Translations under genes and position numbers: made by a program
The notes under the pieces: model-generated
Told to the model about the DNA's origin: nothing
What the model saw: only the letters and a program-made list of their open reading frames with translations
Database searches by the model: none
Shown: positions 1,247 to 6,953 of the stretch, piece after piece
Layout: every line of letters begins with the position of its first letter
Position numbering within the stretch: the stretch's first letter is position 1
Origin: Spirochaetaceae bacterium
Lineage (GTDB): Bacteria; Spirochaetota; Spirochaetia; Treponematales; Treponemataceae
Reading direction: 5' to 3'
Assembly: GCA_017382775.1 (NCBI GenBank)
Contig: JAFNZQ010000266.1
Span: 1 to 7,831, forward strand
DNA length: 7,831 nucleotides

Positions 1247-1346
1247 AACCGTATACTATTGTCTCCGTATACTTTTGTATCTGTATACTTTTGTATACAG
1301 CACCGTACACAAAAGTATACAGATGTGTATGATTTAGTATACGGTT
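1247..1346 (+). repeat. AT-rich nested palindrome, left module of composite repeat copy 1
   Basis: Outer arms AACCGTATACTA (1247-1258) and TAGTATACGGTT (1335-1346) are perfect reverse complements. Inside them, 16-bp arms ATCTGTATACTTTTGT (1279-1294) and ACAAAAGTATACAGAT (1309-1324) are also perfect complements around a 14-nt loop. The unit is followed by a T-run at 1354-1360, so on the plus strand it could act as a weak terminator. Copy 2 at 6702-6770 has the same nested plan. Confidence 0.8.
1249..1296. repeat. Three tandem 16-bp units
   Basis: Three consecutive 16-bp units start at 1249, 1265 and 1281: CCGTATACTATTGTCT, CCGTATACTTTTGTAT and CTGTATACTTTTGTAT. They form the left half of the AT-rich palindromic unit. 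The corresponding unit near 6702 has only one such copy, so the array probably arose by local duplication. Confidence 0.8.
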
Positions 1347-1401
1347 TGATAAGTTTTTTTAGGGGAGATAGTACCGATTCCCGATGAAATTCTGTTTGCG
1401 A

Positions 1402-1513
1402 CCTGCGTTAGGGCTCCGGAGGGTGCGAAGCAGTCTCGGTGCGCAGCAACGAGACCGAAGTGAAACGGAGCCCGTAGGTAGCCCGACCCTTTGCGCAGCA
1501 AAGGGGAACGCCC
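1402..1513 (+). repeat. GC-rich structured module, copy 1 (candidate folded RNA or mobile palindromic element)
   Basis: This 112-bp block aligns without gaps to 6823-6934, with 21 differences by my hand count. Possible stems are: GCGTT (1405-1409) with AACGC (1507-1511) closing the structure; GGGCTCCG (1411-1418) with CGGAGCCC (1466-1473); GTCTCG (1433-1438) with CGAGAC (1450-1455), extended by TGC/GCA; and CCCTTTGC (1487-1494) with GCAAAGGG (1498-1505). A second AGCCC at 1480-1484 could compete for GGGCT. The block is flanked by TGATAAG plus a T-run on the left and an A-run on the right. It lies in the 3' region of thrC, on the opposite strand. A 61-codon reading frame crosses it but has no coding support. 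Confidence 0.8.
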
Positions 1514-1547
1514 AAAAAAAACGAAACCTCATTTTCCCTTGTCCTCG

Positions 1548-3005
1548 TTATAGGGACATAACAAATTGAAGCATTGCCTCTTTTTCAATTACATCGGTGT
1601 GCAACTCTTTCTTCGTCTGCAAATCGGAAAGGTTTCTTGGAATGGGCCATCCGGTGAGTTTTGCCAGGCGATCCATTTGGGCAAATTCGTCATTGTCGGA
1701 CAGCGGTTCCAAGGCAGAAAGCACTGAGCCGGGAAACTTATAGGCCGATGCGGTGGACAAAACCACCATGGGTCGACTGTCGCCGGTTTGGTTCACATAA
1801 TTTTCTGCCACCGCCCATGCAGTGGCGGTATGGGTGTCGCAAAGATAATTATGTTCCTTGAAAACATTGGCAATGGCAGTTTGAGCTCCCACATCATCGC
1901 AGAAGCCGGCATGGAATTCTTCGATAATGGCCGCTTTCAGGTTTGCGGGGACGGTATAGTTGCCATCTGTATTCAGTTGATTCATCAGTTTCGAAACCAG
2001 TTCCGTATCTTCGGACAGGAAATACAGCAGCCGTTCCAAATTGGAAGAGACCAAAATATCCATTGACGGGGAAAGGGTTTTGTGGAGAGGACGGCGGCGA
2101 TCATAGGTTCCGGTCTGAATAAAATCGGTGAGTACGTTGTTGGCATTGGATGCGCAAATCAGTTTGCCCACGGGCAATCCCAGTTTCTTTGCCAGCCAGC
2201 CGGCCAAAATGTCTCCGAAATTACCGGTGGGAACGCAGAAGTTCACGGTATCGCCCATTTGGATTTGGCCACGACGGAGCAAATCTGCGTAGGCTTTGAA
2301 ATAGTAAGTGACCTGCGGTGCCAAACGGCCGATGTTGATTGAATTGGCAGTGGATAGGCACAGGCGATTCCCACCGGGAAGTCTACCATTTTCCCCGGCA
2401 GCGAAGATGTTTTTCACTCCGGTTTGGGCATCATCAAAATTGCCTTTTACTGCGCACACAGCCACGTTATTGCCCTCTTGTGTCACCATCTGTGCCCGTT
2501 GGATTGCAGACACGCCGCCATCGGGATAAAACACGCAGATTTTTACCCCGGGCACATTTGCAAAACCTGCCAGGGCGGCCTTGCCGGTATCGCCGGAGGT
2601 TGCGGTGAGAATCAGCACATCCTCATTCATTCCCTTGACCTCACGGGCTGCGGTGAGCAATTGAGGAAGCATACAAAGGGCCACATCCTTAAAGGCCGAT
2701 GTGGGGCCACGGAACAATTCCAGTACTGTAAATTTACCGGTATCCACCGTGGGAGTCAACTCTTCCGTTTGGAACTTTCCCTTATAGGCTCGATCAACCA
2801 ATTTTTTCATATTCGGAATTTCCGGCAGAAAGGCACCGATAATCCCGGTTGCCATCTCCATGGTATTTTCTTGTAGACAGCCTGCAACGTCAATTTGAGG
2901 CAATTTTTCCGGAACGTACAATCCGCCGTCAAGGGCTAATCCGGTCAGCACCGCATGGGCACTGTCTACAAAATTTTTTCCGTTTCTTGTGGAATGATAT
3001 CGCAT
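1548..3005 (-). CDS. thrC: Threonine synthase
   Basis: This 485-residue protein is a full-length, long-form threonine synthase (fold type II, PLP-dependent). It converts O-phospho-L-homoserine to L-threonine and phosphate in the cytoplasm. An N-terminal Thr_synth_N-like segment (MRYHSTRN..., LALDGGLYVPE at 24-34) precedes the catalytic domain. The Schiff-base lysine is K106 in GPTSAFKD (100-107). TATSGDTGKAA (134-144) and VPTGNFGDILAG (258-269) form the substrate and cofactor phosphate loops. The start at 3005 is supported by an AGGAGA Shine-Dalgarno site (3016-3011) at 5-nt spacing. The gene is transcribed divergently from hom, lysC and asd, which feed the same pathway. The TAA stop at 1548 is followed about 35 nt later by composite repeat copy 1. 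Confidence 0.97.
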   Translation of the reverse strand: MRYHSTRNGKNFVDSAHAVLTGLALDGGLYVPEKLPQIDVAGCLQENTMEMATGIIGAFLPEIPNMKKLVDRAYKGKFQTEELTPTVDTGKFTVLELFRGPTSAFKDVALCMLPQLLTAAREVKGMNEDVLILTATSGDTGKAALAGFANVPGVKICVFYPDGGVSAIQRAQMVTQEGNNVAVCAVKGNFDDAQTGVKNIFAAGENGRLPGGNRLCLSTANSINIGRLAPQVTYYFKAYADLLRRGQIQMGDTVNFCVPTGNFGDILAGWLAKKLGLPVGKLICASNANNVLTDFIQTGTYDRRRPLHKTLSPSMDILVSSNLERLLYFLSEDTELVSKLMNQLNTDGNYTVPANLKAAIIEEFHAGFCDDVGAQTAIANVFKEHNYLCDTHTATAWAVAENYVNQTGDSRPMVVLSTASAYKFPGSVLSALEPLSDNDEFAQMDRLAKLTGWPIPRNLSDLQTKKELHTDVIEKEAMLQFVMSL

Positions 3006-3180: not shown

Positions 3181-4302
3181 ATGAAGATTGGATTACTTGG
3201 TTTTGGTGTTGTAGGCCAAGGTGTCTACGACTTGATTGCCTCACGTGAGGATATGTCCGTTGTCAAGGTTTTGTGCCGAAAAGATGTGTCTCTACCGGGC
3301 GTGCAGGTAACAAAGGATTTCAACGATATTCTGAATGATTCCGACATCGATACCGTTGTGGAAGCCATTGGCGGTCTGCATCCGGCTTATGAGTTTGTCA
3401 AGGCCGCCATCGAGGCCGGTAAAAACGTTGTCACTGCCAACAAAGCCTTGGTCGCCACTTTCTATGACGAATTGATTCCCCTTGCAAAGGAAAAGGGCCT
3501 TTGTTTCCGTTGTACCGCAGCTGTCGGTGGCGGTATCGGCTGGCTTAGCGAGTTGGAGCGTGCCCGCAGGATACAGACCATTGAAAAGGTGGGCGGAATT
3601 ATGAACGGTACCTGCAACTACATCCTCGATTCCATGACCCGTTTGGGTTTTGATTACACTAATGCGTTGAAGCAAGCCCAGGAATTGGGTTACGCCGAGG
3701 CTGATCCCACCACCGATGTGGAAGGTATCGATACTTGGCACAAGGCGATTTTGTCTTCCAATGTGGCATTCGGAATTTGTTTGGACTCCGCCACCGTTCC
3801 CGTTGCCGGCATCAGTCGCATACAGGCAACCGATGTAGAAAATTTCAAAGCCCATGGTTTGGTCTGCAAACTGATTTCTACCGGAATGTTCACAAAGGGC
3901 AAGGTCAGTGCCTATGTCCAGCCCACATTGGTAAAATTTGGCGAGCCGGAATCCGCTGTTCCCGCTAACTACAACCTCATTACTTTTGTCGGTTCTGCTT
4001 CCGGCCGAATGAGTTTCTACGGCCAAGGTGCAGGCCGTTATCCCACTGCATATAATGTGGTGCAGGACTGCGCCGATGTGCTTTTGGATAAGGGATTTTA
4101 CAGTCCCTGTGGAGAAAAAGTCAAGGCGGAAAATACCGACTTTATGCGCTACTATGTTCGAGGCGAAAAGGACTCATGGTTGGAAGAAAACACCGCAGAA
4201 ACTTGGGGGACTGCCATTATCAGCAAGCCTATTTCCGTGGAAGCCATGCACGTATGGTTGAAAAACCATCCCGAGGCATTTATCGCTGCATTAGCAGAAT
4301 AA
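3181..4302 (+). CDS. hom: Homoserine dehydrogenase, short form without a recognisable ACT domain
   Basis: This 373-residue protein reduces L-aspartate 4-semialdehyde to L-homoserine with NAD(P)H. The dinucleotide loop is GFGVVGQG (7-14). TANK (85-88) contains a catalytic lysine, NGTCNYI (142-148) is the family signature, and YAEADPT (171-177) leads to GIDTWHK (182-188). E173, D184 and K188 have the same spacing as the yeast catalytic residues E208, D219 and K223. GQGAGRYPTAYNVVQD (281-296) closes the catalytic domain. Only about 55 residues follow, starting RYYVR. They do not show the DxPGVLA pattern of the regulatory ACT domain that most bacterial enzymes carry (about 400-440 residues in all). 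The start is chosen from the ribosome binding site at 3168-3172. The gene is first in an operon, with 21 nt to lysC. Confidence 0.96.
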   Translation: MKIGLLGFGVVGQGVYDLIASREDMSVVKVLCRKDVSLPGVQVTKDFNDILNDSDIDTVVEAIGGLHPAYEFVKAAIEAGKNVVTANKALVATFYDELIPLAKEKGLCFRCTAAVGGGIGWLSELERARRIQTIEKVGGIMNGTCNYILDSMTRLGFDYTNALKQAQELGYAEADPTTDVEGIDTWHKAILSSNVAFGICLDSATVPVAGISRIQATDVENFKAHGLVCKLISTGMFTKGKVSAYVQPTLVKFGEPESAVPANYNLITFVGSASGRMSFYGQGAGRYPTAYNVVQDCADVLLDKGFYSPCGEKVKAENTDFMRYYVRGEKDSWLEENTAETWGTAIISKPISVEAMHVWLKNHPEAFIAALAE

Positions 4303-4323
4303 TATAATTATAAGGAAGAAAGT

Positions 4324-5643
4324 ATGTTAAAAGTTACCAAATTCGGCGGATCATCCATGGCAGACGCCGGCCAATACGAAAAGGTACGAGACATTGTGAC
4401 TGCCGATCCTGAACGTCGTGTAGTGGTGGTTTCCGCCGCCGGAAAACGATTTTCCAAGGATCACAAAATCACTGATTTGCTGTATCTCTGTCACGCTCAC
4501 ATTCAGTACGGAGTGCCCTGCGATCCCATCTATGAGACAATTACATCACGGTATATTGAGATTCGAGAAAAACTGGGTATTCAGATGGATTTGGAAAGTG
4601 AATTTGCCGAATTGAAGTCTCGACTGGATGCCAAACAGGTTTCCAAGGATGAAATGGCCAGCCGTGGCGAATATTTCTCCGCCAAGTTGATGGCCGCTTT
4701 TTTGGGATTTGATTTCGTGGATGCTTCCCAATGGGTGTATTTCACCATTGATGGCAAGGTTGACACCGAAAAGACCTACGCAGCCTTGAAAGAAAAGGCC
4801 AAAAACTGCAAAGGTATTGTCATTCCCGGTTTCTACGGAGTGATGCCCGACGGAAGTATCCGCACATTCTCCCGTGGTGGCAGCGATATTACCGGTTCCT
4901 TGGCCGCTGCCGCGTTGGATGCCGATGTATACGAGAACTGGACCGACGTTTCCGGTATTCTGATGGCAGATCCTCGAATTGTGGAAAATTCCCGCCCCAT
5001 TGCCGAAATTACTTACGAAGAACTCCGCGAGTTGGCCTATGCCGGCGCCAATGTGCTTCACGAAGACGCCATCTATCCCGTGCGTGAAAAGAACATTCCG
5101 CTGAATATCCGCAACACCAACGCCCCCGAAGATCCCGGAACTATGATTTGCAAGGATTTCGACACCGAAATTGACACCAACCGAATCATCACCGGAATTG
5201 CCGGCAAAAAGAATTTTTCCATAATTACTGTTTTCAAGAGAGGACTTACCAAAGAGGTTGGTATTCTCCGTCGGATTTTGCTGGTTATGGAAAAACACAA
5301 CATATCCGTGGAATTCGTTCCCAACGGAATGGACAACGTTTCTTTGGCAATTCCCACCGATAAGCTTAGCCCACATCTATACGCCATCCTGGCTGATATC
5401 CAGCAGGATATCGCACCGGACAACATCACCGTTCACGATCAGATTGCCGTTATCACCGCAGTTGGTCATCAAATGGTGTTCCGACCCGGTGTTTCCGGAA
5501 AAATTTTCGCCGCACTGGGAGAGGCCGGAATTAACATTCGTATGATTACCCAAGGCCCCGATGAGTTGAACATCATCTTCGGTGTGGACAACAAGGATTT
5601 CGATAATGCCATTCGAGTCTTGTACAATAGTTTTATAAAGTAA
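4324..5643 (+). CDS. lysC: Aspartate kinase, monofunctional, with two C-terminal ACT domains
   Basis: This 439-residue protein phosphorylates L-aspartate to 4-phospho-L-aspartate, the committed step to lysine, methionine and threonine. KFGGSS (6-11) is the amino acid kinase signature. SRGEYFSAKL (113-122) holds the substrate-binding glutamate, and FSRGGSD (182-188) with WTDVSGILMADPR (206-218) forms the nucleotide site. Two ACT domains follow: ACT1 at roughly 298-365 (KEVGILRR, HNISVEFVPNG) and ACT2 at roughly 374-437 (GVSGKIFAALGEAGINIR at 389-406). The FVPNGMDNVS pattern resembles clostridial and B. subtilis YclM-type enzymes, which are controlled by lysine and/or threonine. The effector here is inferred. 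The Shine-Dalgarno site AAGGAAG (4312-4318) supports the start. The stop codon is 13 nt before asd. Confidence 0.96.
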   Translation: MLKVTKFGGSSMADAGQYEKVRDIVTADPERRVVVVSAAGKRFSKDHKITDLLYLCHAHIQYGVPCDPIYETITSRYIEIREKLGIQMDLESEFAELKSRLDAKQVSKDEMASRGEYFSAKLMAAFLGFDFVDASQWVYFTIDGKVDTEKTYAALKEKAKNCKGIVIPGFYGVMPDGSIRTFSRGGSDITGSLAAAALDADVYENWTDVSGILMADPRIVENSRPIAEITYEELRELAYAGANVLHEDAIYPVREKNIPLNIRNTNAPEDPGTMICKDFDTEIDTNRIITGIAGKKNFSIITVFKRGLTKEVGILRRILLVMEKHNISVEFVPNGMDNVSLAIPTDKLSPHLYAILADIQQDIAPDNITVHDQIAVITAVGHQMVFRPGVSGKIFAALGEAGINIRMITQGPDELNIIFGVDNKDFDNAIRVLYNSFIK

Positions 5644-5656
5644 GGAGGTATTTTTA

Positions 5657-6658
5657 ATGAAAAATTATACTGTTGCGGTTTTGGGCGCAACCGGCGCCGT
5701 GGGACAAGAAATGATTAATATTTTGCAGGAACGAAACTTTCCCGTCGGAAAGTTGGTTCCCCTGGCCAGTACTCGCAGTGCGGGGGAAACCTTAAAGTTC
5801 CGAGGGGAAGATGTGACCATCCAACTTGCCTGCGATGAGGCTTTCGAGGGTGTGGACATAGTACTGGGTGCTGCCGAAAACGACATTGCCAAACAGTTCG
5901 CTCCCGCCATTGTCAAGGCCGGGGCTGTGTTTGTTGATAATTCCTCAGCTTTCCGTATGGACCCTGATGTTCCTTTGATTGTTCCCGAAGTCAATGCCGA
6001 AGATGTAAAGGGCCACAAGGGAATTATCTCCAACCCCAATTGTACCACCATTATCACCATAACCGCTGTTAATGCTCTTAACTCCATCGCCCCCATACGA
6101 ACAATGACAGCATCCTCCTACCAGGCCGTTTCCGGTGCAGGTGCAGGCGGTCCCATTGAATTGATGGAAGAGGTGGAAGCCCTACGAAAGGGTGAAACCT
6201 ACGAACCAAAGGTTTTCTCTCACCAGATTGCATACAATGTTATTCCTCAAATTGGTGGAGAGGCCTTTGAAGGATACACCTCCGAAGAAATGAAAATGCA
6301 GAACGAGGGCCGAAAAATTATGCATGTGCCGGAGTTAAAAGTGTCATGTACCTGCGTCCGTGTTCCCGTTGTTCGCAGTCACTCCGTTTCCGTATCTTGC
6401 CATTTTGATGTGCCCGTAACCGTGGAGCAGGCCCGTGAGGTGATTGCTAAGGCTCCCGGATGCAAATTGGTTGACGATTTGGCCAAAAAGGAATATCCCA
6501 TGCCTTTGGATACCAGCGGACAGGACATTGTGTACGTGGGCCGCATTCGTCCGGACCTTACCGATGACAAGGGATTGTGCCTGTGGTGCTGCGGCGACCA
6601 GGTTCGCAAGGGTGCTGCCACCAATGCCATTCAGATTGCAGAACTGTTGATTAAGTAA
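5657..6658 (+). CDS. asd: Aspartate-semialdehyde dehydrogenase
   Basis: This 333-residue enzyme reduces 4-aspartyl phosphate to L-aspartate 4-semialdehyde with NADPH. GATGAVG (10-16) is the NADP loop. The active-site cysteine is C129 in SNPNCTT (125-131), and Q156 in SSYQAVSGAG positions the substrate. R235 and H242 in RVPVVRSHS have the same 7-residue spacing as the catalytic pair R267/H274 of the E. coli enzyme. CGDQVRKGAATNAIQ (312-326) is the conserved C-terminal helix. A consensus AAGGAGGT Shine-Dalgarno site (5642-5649) overlaps the lysC stop codon, so lysC and asd are probably translated in step. It is the last gene of the operon and is followed by composite repeat copy 2. Confidence 0.97.
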   Translation: MKNYTVAVLGATGAVGQEMINILQERNFPVGKLVPLASTRSAGETLKFRGEDVTIQLACDEAFEGVDIVLGAAENDIAKQFAPAIVKAGAVFVDNSSAFRMDPDVPLIVPEVNAEDVKGHKGIISNPNCTTIITITAVNALNSIAPIRTMTASSYQAVSGAGAGGPIELMEEVEALRKGETYEPKVFSHQIAYNVIPQIGGEAFEGYTSEEMKMQNEGRKIMHVPELKVSCTCVRVPVVRSHSVSVSCHFDVPVTVEQAREVIAKAPGCKLVDDLAKKEYPMPLDTSGQDIVYVGRIRPDLTDDKGLCLWCCGDQVRKGAATNAIQIAELLIK

Positions 6659-6682: not shown

Positions 6683-6701
6683 CGAAATTTGAAAACTTTC
6701 A

Positions 6702-6770
6702 AAACTGTATACTTTTATATACAGTTTGTGTAAAAAAGTATACAGTGATGTATGATTTAGTATACGGTTT
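6702..6770 (+). repeat. AT-rich nested palindrome, left module of composite repeat copy 2
   Basis: Outer arms AAACTGTATACT (6702-6713) and AGTATACGGTTT (6759-6770) pair in 11 of 12 positions, and the odd pair would be a G-U wobble in RNA. Inner arms ACTGTATACTTTT (6704-6716) and AAAAGTATACAGT (6734-6746) are perfect complements. A shorter alternative hairpin, AAACTGTATA/TATACAGTTT (6702-6711 with 6718-6727), is also perfect. The 3' half (TGTATGATTTAGTATACGG, then TTTGATAAG) is identical to copy 1. Confidence 0.78.
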
Positions 6771-6822
6771 GATAAGTTTTTAGGGAAGATAGTACCGATT
6801 TGAACTGAAATCTTGTTTGCAA

Positions 6823-6934
6823 CCTGCGTTAGGGCTCCGGAGGGTGCGTAGCAGTCTCGTCGCAACGCGACGAGACCGACCGCAAGGGAAGCCCGTAGGC
6901 AGCCCGCCCCCTTGCTACGCAAGGGGGAACGCCC
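6823..6934 (+). repeat. GC-rich structured module, copy 2 (candidate folded RNA or mobile palindromic element)
   Basis: This 112-bp block is the ungapped partner of 1402-1513. Its stems are: GCGTT (6826-6830) with AACGC (6928-6932); GGGCT (6832-6836) with AGCCC (6890-6894); a perfect 10-bp stem GTCTCGTCGC (6854-6863) with GCGACGAGAC (6867-6876) around an AAC loop; and a perfect 9-bp stem CCCCCTTGC (6907-6915) with GCAAGGGGG (6919-6927) around a TAC loop. The last two stems keep pairing although their sequences differ from copy 1. It lies between the 3' ends of asd and the convergent phosphatidyltransferase gene. Confidence 0.8.
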
Positions 6935-6953
6935 AAAAAACCAAAAAATTCCC

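Follow-up and report, generated by a model that had tools for sequence, protein, structure and literature searches.

The window analysed here, a 7,831-nucleotide stretch that is the whole of contig C210 in the 1.44 Mb draft genome (81.5% complete) of a Spirochaetaceae bacterium, holds two GC-rich modules, both belonging to one short, dispersed element. It is probably selfish and mobile though non-autonomous, and would spread as a folded plus strand, either RNA or single-stranded DNA. The element is about 90–150 bp long and carries no gene of its own. Mobility is the likely explanation of six observations: sharp ends, unrelated flanks, high copy number, presence or absence between species, covariation of the paired positions, and copies lying in frame within protein genes.

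The initial annotation had placed the modules at 1402–1513 and 6823–6934, and its count of 112 nt each, aligned without gaps and with 21 differences, is exact. The base changes that it listed are likewise right: in the third stem, T1440-A1448 becomes C6861-G6869 and the mismatch G1439/A1449 becomes T6860-A6870, and in the fourth stem T1490-A1502 becomes C6911-G6923 and A1486/G1506 becomes C6907-G6927. Besides these four changes, the remaining pairs of the family helices are Watson-Crick in both copies alike (Table 1). A DNA search of the window's own genome matched copy 2 to copy 1 at E 5e-25, which is not a chance likeness. The predicted fold of copy 2 is better than those of all 200 shuffles (z −4.35), and that of copy 1 is weaker by this measure (better than 197 of 200, three being as good; z −2.38). 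The likeness does not end at 112 bp, as had been supposed. Each copy is preceded upstream by an AT-rich palindrome array and a spacer, so that the direct repeats run from about 1311 to 1519 and from about 6734 to 6940. These arrays of GTATAC palindromes (1255–1345 and 6704–6760) have related stretches in contigs C235, C17 and C265 of the same genome and possibly represent a repeat family of their own, one that might compare with the TD RNAs.

Table 1. Features of the window and, in the last rows, TD-2 matches beside element copies in genome G081; helix positions are those of copy 1.
Feature	Position	Strand	Remarks
Element copy 1 (model span)	1402–1516	+	R1 136.8 bits, R2 119.3 bits; core GCGTT...AACGC 1405–1511
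Element copy 2 (model span)	6823–6937	+	R1 138.1 bits, R2 115.2 bits; core 6826–6932
P1 5' arm GCGTT	1405–1409	+	pairs with 1507–1511 AACGC; in copy 2, 6826–6830/6928–6932; identical in both copies
P2 5' arm GGGCT	1411–1415	+	pairs with 1480–1484 AGCCC
P2b 5' arm	1421–1423	+	pairs with 1471–1473
P3a mini-hairpin TGC-GAA-GCA	1424–1432	+	1424–1426/1430–1432; stem changes on both sides
P3b variable hairpin (third stem of the initial annotation)	1433–1455	+	1433–1442/1446–1455
P4 variable hairpin (fourth stem of the initial annotation)	1487–1505	+	1487–1494/1498–1505
Upstream companion of copy 1	1276–1401		AT-rich GTATAC palindromes and shared spacer (repeats D1–D3, I4); outside family core
Upstream companion of copy 2	6699–6822		AT-rich GTATAC palindromes and shared spacer; outside family core
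Threonine synthase	1548–3005	−	Pfam Thr_synth_N, PALP, THR4_C
Homoserine dehydrogenase, aspartokinase, aspartate-semialdehyde dehydrogenase	3181–6658	+	Pfam
TD-2 matches, G081	L093 1184–1276, L094 3056–3148	opposite to element	over Rfam cut-off
TD-2 matches, G081	L102 4836–4927, L106 8205–8297, L122 851–942	opposite to element	below cut-off
TD-2 match, G081	L108 1469–1563	opposite to element	below cut-off; 36 nt off

The family fold comprises six helices. The outermost, P1, brackets the whole element and encloses P2, which in turn encloses P2b; P3a and P3b follow, and P4 stands between the 3' arms of P2 and P1. The P3a mini-hairpin often has a GNA loop and is extended in the copy on contig C296 of the window's genome, and the P3b and P4 hairpins are variable; a further small hairpin between P3b and P4, GC-GAYA-GC (P3c), was read by eye. 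Changes on both sides of a helix are already found within this one genome, where P1 GCGTT/AACGC is replaced by GAGTT/AACTC in C235 and by GCGTC/GACGC in C296, and P2 GGGC/GCCC by GGCC/GGCC in C117.

Covariation was measured in several alignments. Among 61 distinct copies, nearly all from the spirochaete genome richest in the element (G081) and aligned by fitting to the structure, standard pairs fill 91.5% of cells, against 59.4% in shuffles, and 551 cells are changed on both sides, against 155. All 34 pairs have both-side changes in some copy, including the five of P1, in which 98% of cells are paired. The alignment scores 0.626 for covariation, whereas shuffles score 0.155 and slid versions no more than 0.098. 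A structure-fitted alignment of 42 distinct copies from 30 genomes gave similar values (standard pairs 92.6% against 67.3%; both-side changes in 32 of 34 pairs; covariation score 0.538 against 0.135). Because these alignments had been fitted to the structure, we built a sequence-only model (R3) and aligned its 44 matches in G081 without reference to structure. In this alignment 35 cells are changed on both sides, compared with 7.5 in shuffles, and the covariation score is 0.169, compared with 0.064 in shuffles and at most 0.089 in slid versions; further pair types are weaker, the observed count being reached by 9 of 500 shuffles. Since many R3 matches stop before the 3' arm of P1, support for this helix comes here from 10–12 rows. 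P2b has one pair that is not general, its outermost, which is open in 28 of 42 copies of the 30-genome set and in 24 of 38 of the sequence-only set. RNAalifold, run on the structure-fitted alignment A8, returned the same helices, with both-side changes in all 27 predicted pairs. The conserved fold first proposed from the two window copies is thus borne out by the test set beforehand, covariation among many copies: the signal lies far above both the shuffled and the slid controls and holds on the sequence-only alignment.

The two strands of the element are not equivalent. The plus-strand RNA is predicted to fold more stably than the minus strand in 116 of 133 copies, by a mean difference of −4.2 kcal/mol. 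Dinucleotide shuffles give −2.3 and lean towards the plus strand as well, so the effect is modest and partly compositional. In alignments A6–A8, in which some copies occur twice, there are 93 G-U cells against 44 A-C cells, and 200 G-A cells against 9 T-C cells. Judged from these sequences, the asymmetry would favour a plus strand acting as RNA or as single-stranded DNA. The original alternatives of a structured RNA and a transposase-recognised palindrome share the conserved fold, which stands, but are themselves only partly separable: dispersal favours a mobile element, and strand asymmetry an RNA or single-stranded DNA. Stop-free frames (31% on the plus and 59% on the minus strand) are a little commoner than in shuffles (28% and 55%), which gives no sign of selection for a peptide-coding role; the lengths of 49, 43 and 41 of the 133 copies leave remainders of 0, 1 and 2, respectively, when divided by three.

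In 40 aligned copies, conservation extends from one base before GCGTT to three bases past AACGCCC, giving bounds that read Y|GCGTT ... AACGCCC-W-R-A, beyond which the flanks are unrelated and have no common sequence. Such sharp ends, in a high-copy, non-autonomous element whose P1 amounts to a terminal inverted repeat in which the paired letters covary, would also suit a DNA-level palindrome of the MITE or REP type, in which a transposase reads the terminal inverted repeat and the inner fold is incidental. We regard this reading as possible though doubtful, given that the inner helices covary as strongly as the ends and that one strand folds better than the other. Moreover, the best flanking 2-mer excess in 217 copies, from one genome per species, was 34 against 21 expected, which is no clear target-site duplication, and no convincing direct repeat stood beside these copies at any offset tried. 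Neither the richest genome nor that of the window has a RAYT transposase, as detailed below.

Evidence for dispersal comes from searches of related genomes. DNA searches recovered five good copies and one partial copy in the window's own genome and, over 59 genomes, matched that genome only, so a covariance model was needed. The first such model (R1), built from four copies, matched at least 108 of 195 genomes and 12 of 20 genera of the window's family; a second (R2), built from 40 copies and run over the phylum, matched at least 74 of 296 genomes, representing 37 of 139 genera, the window's own genome being included in both. Copy counts in these wide searches are floors because at most 19 (R1) or 12 (R2) candidates were scored per genome. 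R2 finds 10 copies in the window's genome, and with up to 150 candidates scored in each, ten genomes of the phylum hold 103, 11, 6, 6, 11, 8, 6, 4, 2 and 4 copies. The richest, G081 (2.2 Mb, 103 copies), encodes an ABC transporter whose sequence is 97% identical to that of proteins named Treponema pectinovorum, which would make the window's family Treponemataceae-like. The covariance-model search proposed at the outset thus succeeded in the host and across its family and phylum, and the earlier suggestion that similar elements are dispersed in other bacterial genomes proved accurate for many spirochaete and Bacteroidota genomes, the richest of which carry about a hundred copies. Distant blastn searches (E ≤ 1e-5) of phage and plasmid collections gave no match. 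A contig filed as viral in IMG/VR (L124) encodes an Asd 87% identical to that of the window; it has no element and appears to be chromosomal, from a different bacterium.

In the stretches of G081 that were listed, copies are mostly intergenic and occur singly, in inverted pairs or in rows. Where ORFs lie on both sides (123 copies), the element is in the same orientation as both neighbours in 48 cases, opposite to both in 28, opposite then same in 27, and same then opposite in 20. With one genome compared per species, the trpB-trpA spacer contains the element in G074 and none in G081. At locus L093, two identical copies lie 228 nt apart with N between them, which may be an assembly artefact, and at L112 (1236–1538) a seemingly shortened VapC-like ORF adjoins a copy.

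Close direct pairs of copies at L086 (2747–4766), L089 (2386–4832) and L111 (1385–2567) flank genes that, from translations alone, read as hipBA, RhuM/DUF3990 and a PIN-domain gene, and genes read in the same way as TetR with a flavodoxin are also flanked by a direct pair. The window copies, also in direct orientation, flank the block from threonine synthase to aspartate-semialdehyde dehydrogenase. These arrangements could reflect homologous recombination or cassette-like exchange between direct copies flanking cargo genes, an explanation that we consider very improbable: other close copies are inverted or isolated, and single in-frame insertions need no cargo. Elsewhere in the window, near-identical and partly self-palindromic 18-mers, TTTAGTC(T/A)ACATGTAGAC, at 1078–1095 and 1153–1170 stand upstream of an AAA_14/DUF4143 gene and are possibly an operator pair. 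No tRNA was found in the window. An Rfam search of the window at E ≤ 1 returned five matches, all below cut-off and none on the element (four miRNA families on the palindromes at 1264–1347, and Ysr251 at 5269–5467).

To look beyond spirochaetes, we scanned named genomes with a pattern for the constant frame, which hit at least 118 stretches. Among the 80 loci listed, eight are titled Treponema, two Fibrobacter and one "bacterium", and the rest are Bacteroidota, above all Flavobacteriaceae; P1 is constant in these loci by design, because the pattern fixes part of it. Applied to 78 of the 80 listed loci, R2 gave 87 matches, and some of these lie outside the pattern and carry P1 changes, such as GCGTC/GACGC at L179:320–412. 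Of eight Bacteroidota loci scanned with Rfam, three matched Flavo-1 (RF01705) over the 42-bit gathering cut-off (L159, 51.2 bits; L173, 50.2; L187, 45.8), three fell below it (37.0, 34.5 and 26.1 bits), and two had no match. The spirochaete-derived model R2 picks out these stretches as well (L159 4695–4786, L173 283–377 and L187 3301–3421; 35.6, 39.2 and 40.7 bits). In ten genomes drawn from the pattern loci the copies number 100, 6, 27, 41, 2, 2, 3, 55, 31 and 5, six of these being minima; they include at least 100 in Aquimarina (among the best 150 of 852 candidates), at least 55 in Hyunsoonleella and at least 41 in a Bacteroidales MAG, and the Flavo-1 relatives are therefore themselves dispersed and of high copy number.

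Flavo-1 has been listed as a candidate structured RNA of Bacteroidetes (PMC2864571). Its Bacteroidota loci share with the window type the start GCGTTAGGGAT, the stretch GCCCGACC and the AACGCCC end, and homology is indicated through intermediates by the shared P1-P2-P4 frame. The Rfam model, typed as Gene; sRNA, covers the core only, stopping near the start of P4 and lacking the 3' arm of P1. The inner domain also differs, the P2b and P3a columns of R2 being mostly gaps or unpaired in 77 non-Treponema copies. The foreseen threat to novelty from a known Rfam family is thus real for the Bacteroidota relatives, but the window copies match no Rfam family at E ≤ 1 and so do not reach the 42-bit cut-off, and the spirochaete loci scanned gave a single weak Flavo-1 match (L094:8022, 28.1 bits).

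Some copies lie within protein genes. More than half of the copy is inside an ORF of 100 or more codons in 26 entries, many of these ORFs being doubtful, and for 12 of 224 locus entries (a few places being entered twice) the copy is placed deep within an ORF that has at least 150 codons. Five are convincing as real gene insertions, in genes that otherwise look intact. In G081, an RluA-type pseudouridine synthase contains an in-frame copy of 111 nt before its catalytic domain, absent from the homologs in 18 other genomes. An ABC transporter of the same genome carries a sense, in-frame copy of 108 nt in a loop that precedes the Walker A region; the insertion is common to three proteins named T. 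pectinovorum, and orthologs of 536–540 residues do not have it. Several homologs have unrelated, non-element long loops at this site, so the loop is tolerant in general, and one (P0020) shows a different element-like reading there at the protein level. The neighbouring ABC transporter contains a 108-nt copy in frame and antisense. We did not accept L067, where the copy precedes a DUF4007 domain and is probably upstream of the true start, or six other cases in antisense ORFs without support, and a copy close to the beginning of an RHS-like ORF (L088) was left out of the count.

The remaining two insertions are in methionine synthase (MetH) of two Treponema MAGs, in frame and at the same site (model spans 126 and 123 nt); that in L206 falls between the pterin-binding and cobalamin cap domains. 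In the L206 structure model, pLDDT is below 50 at residues 615–655, the insertion being residues 616–656, although this low value may partly reflect the variable alignment (33 sequences). From 120 listed homologs, 14 that could not be parsed were dropped and the other 106 were split by a motif expression. By this protein-level criterion, 51 have element-like linker readings, which comprise 32 distinct ones by a 40-residue cut. Ordinary linkers, with a parsed span of 62–69 residues, are found in 47 of the other 55, and the last eight have longer linkers (72–94) with other readings.

Retention of the MetH linker copy despite sequence turnover would be expected if the family consisted of small RNAs or cis-acting RNA elements that serve the host and are maintained at every site for that reason. 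The both-side changes in every helix, the better-folding plus strand, and the Rfam label of Flavo-1 would fit the same view. We nevertheless hold this to be improbable: ten genomes of a single phylum differ in copy number between 2 and 103, orientations are mixed, the flanks have no common sequence that could serve as promoter or terminator, and copies occur within coding sequences in both orientations.

For the preferred reading, a selfish mobile element, we propose that a trans-acting enzyme would recognise a constant frame of P1, P2, the GAC link, the base of P4 and the AACGCC end, leaving hairpins P3b and P4 free to vary. Movement would occur in trans through an RNA or single-stranded DNA intermediate, and copies would persist where they are harmless, that is between genes and in disordered linkers or protein loops. 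Among 365 ORFs near copies, no transposase-like family recurs that might be the mobilising enzyme or mark an autonomous version of the element; the four families present in three or more loci look ordinary by reading (e.g., ABC transporters in eight loci). RAYT (Y1_Tnp) proteins are encoded in 3 of 17 genomes over cut-off, or 4 of 17 at E ≤ 0.001, with none in G081 or in the 81.5% complete genome of the window. RAYT was accordingly rejected as the mobiliser on the grounds that the richest genome lacks it.

More speculatively, Flavo-1 and the spirochaete elements might form one superfamily of RNA-structured selfish elements in Bacteroidota, Fibrobacterota and Spirochaetota, copied in the manner of a bacterial SINE, with a foreign enzyme acting via RNA or single-stranded DNA. 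Such elements would enter proteins in frame and would have been taken over as the MetH linker in part of Treponema, with both fold and linker constrained. The listed results of the literature searches, in which subscription journals are thinly covered, gave no account of the full element, its high copy number, its spirochaete branch or its in-frame copies, and the phrase "Flavo-1 RNA" had no match there. A family filed as a small RNA would then belong, as a branch, to a folded genome parasite that is widespread and high in copy number, and in-frame invasion of proteins by such elements could be studied outside Rickettsia, in many species and with large copy numbers. The methionine synthase linker offers a testable example of a selfish sequence retained in an enzyme. 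The question is also raised of what enzyme copies an element that is conserved in fold more than in sequence.

Several known systems resemble the element in part. Integron attC sites have the arms RYYYAAC (5') and GTTRRRY (3'), and this identity was rejected since the element's arms are reversed, with GTT at the 5' end and AAC at the 3' end. An intrinsic terminator was likewise rejected, the plus-strand fold being followed by an A-run and not a T-run. REP and BIME sequences are dispersed, intergenic and palindromic; the element is much longer and has multiple helices. The TD-1 and TD-2 RNAs (RF03155 and RF03162), reportedly described in a 2017 paper, are hairpin arrays that differ from the element in sequence and fold and have no match in the window, but are its neighbours. 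Beside the 5' ends of element copies in G081 stand six TD-2 matches, five of them no more than 7 nt away, and four tandem TD-1-like matches occur at L106 5808–6388 (61.3–62.5 bits, against a cut-off of 64.5).

A parallel by description is with the Rickettsia palindromic elements (RPEs), which published accounts describe as non-autonomous, folded sequences of 105–150 bp, found between genes and in frame in conserved protein genes (PMC10969869, PMC2229807). The element is similarly short, folded, intergenic and in frame in conserved protein genes. It differs in its host phyla and in its multi-helix fold with strand polarity, where the RPE is a long stem-loop, and its open frames stay near shuffle level, whereas RPEs are described as encoding a conserved peptide (PMC10969869). 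On our analysis, the best reading of Flavo-1 is that it would represent the Bacteroidota branch of a structure-dependent selfish element that works like the RPEs.
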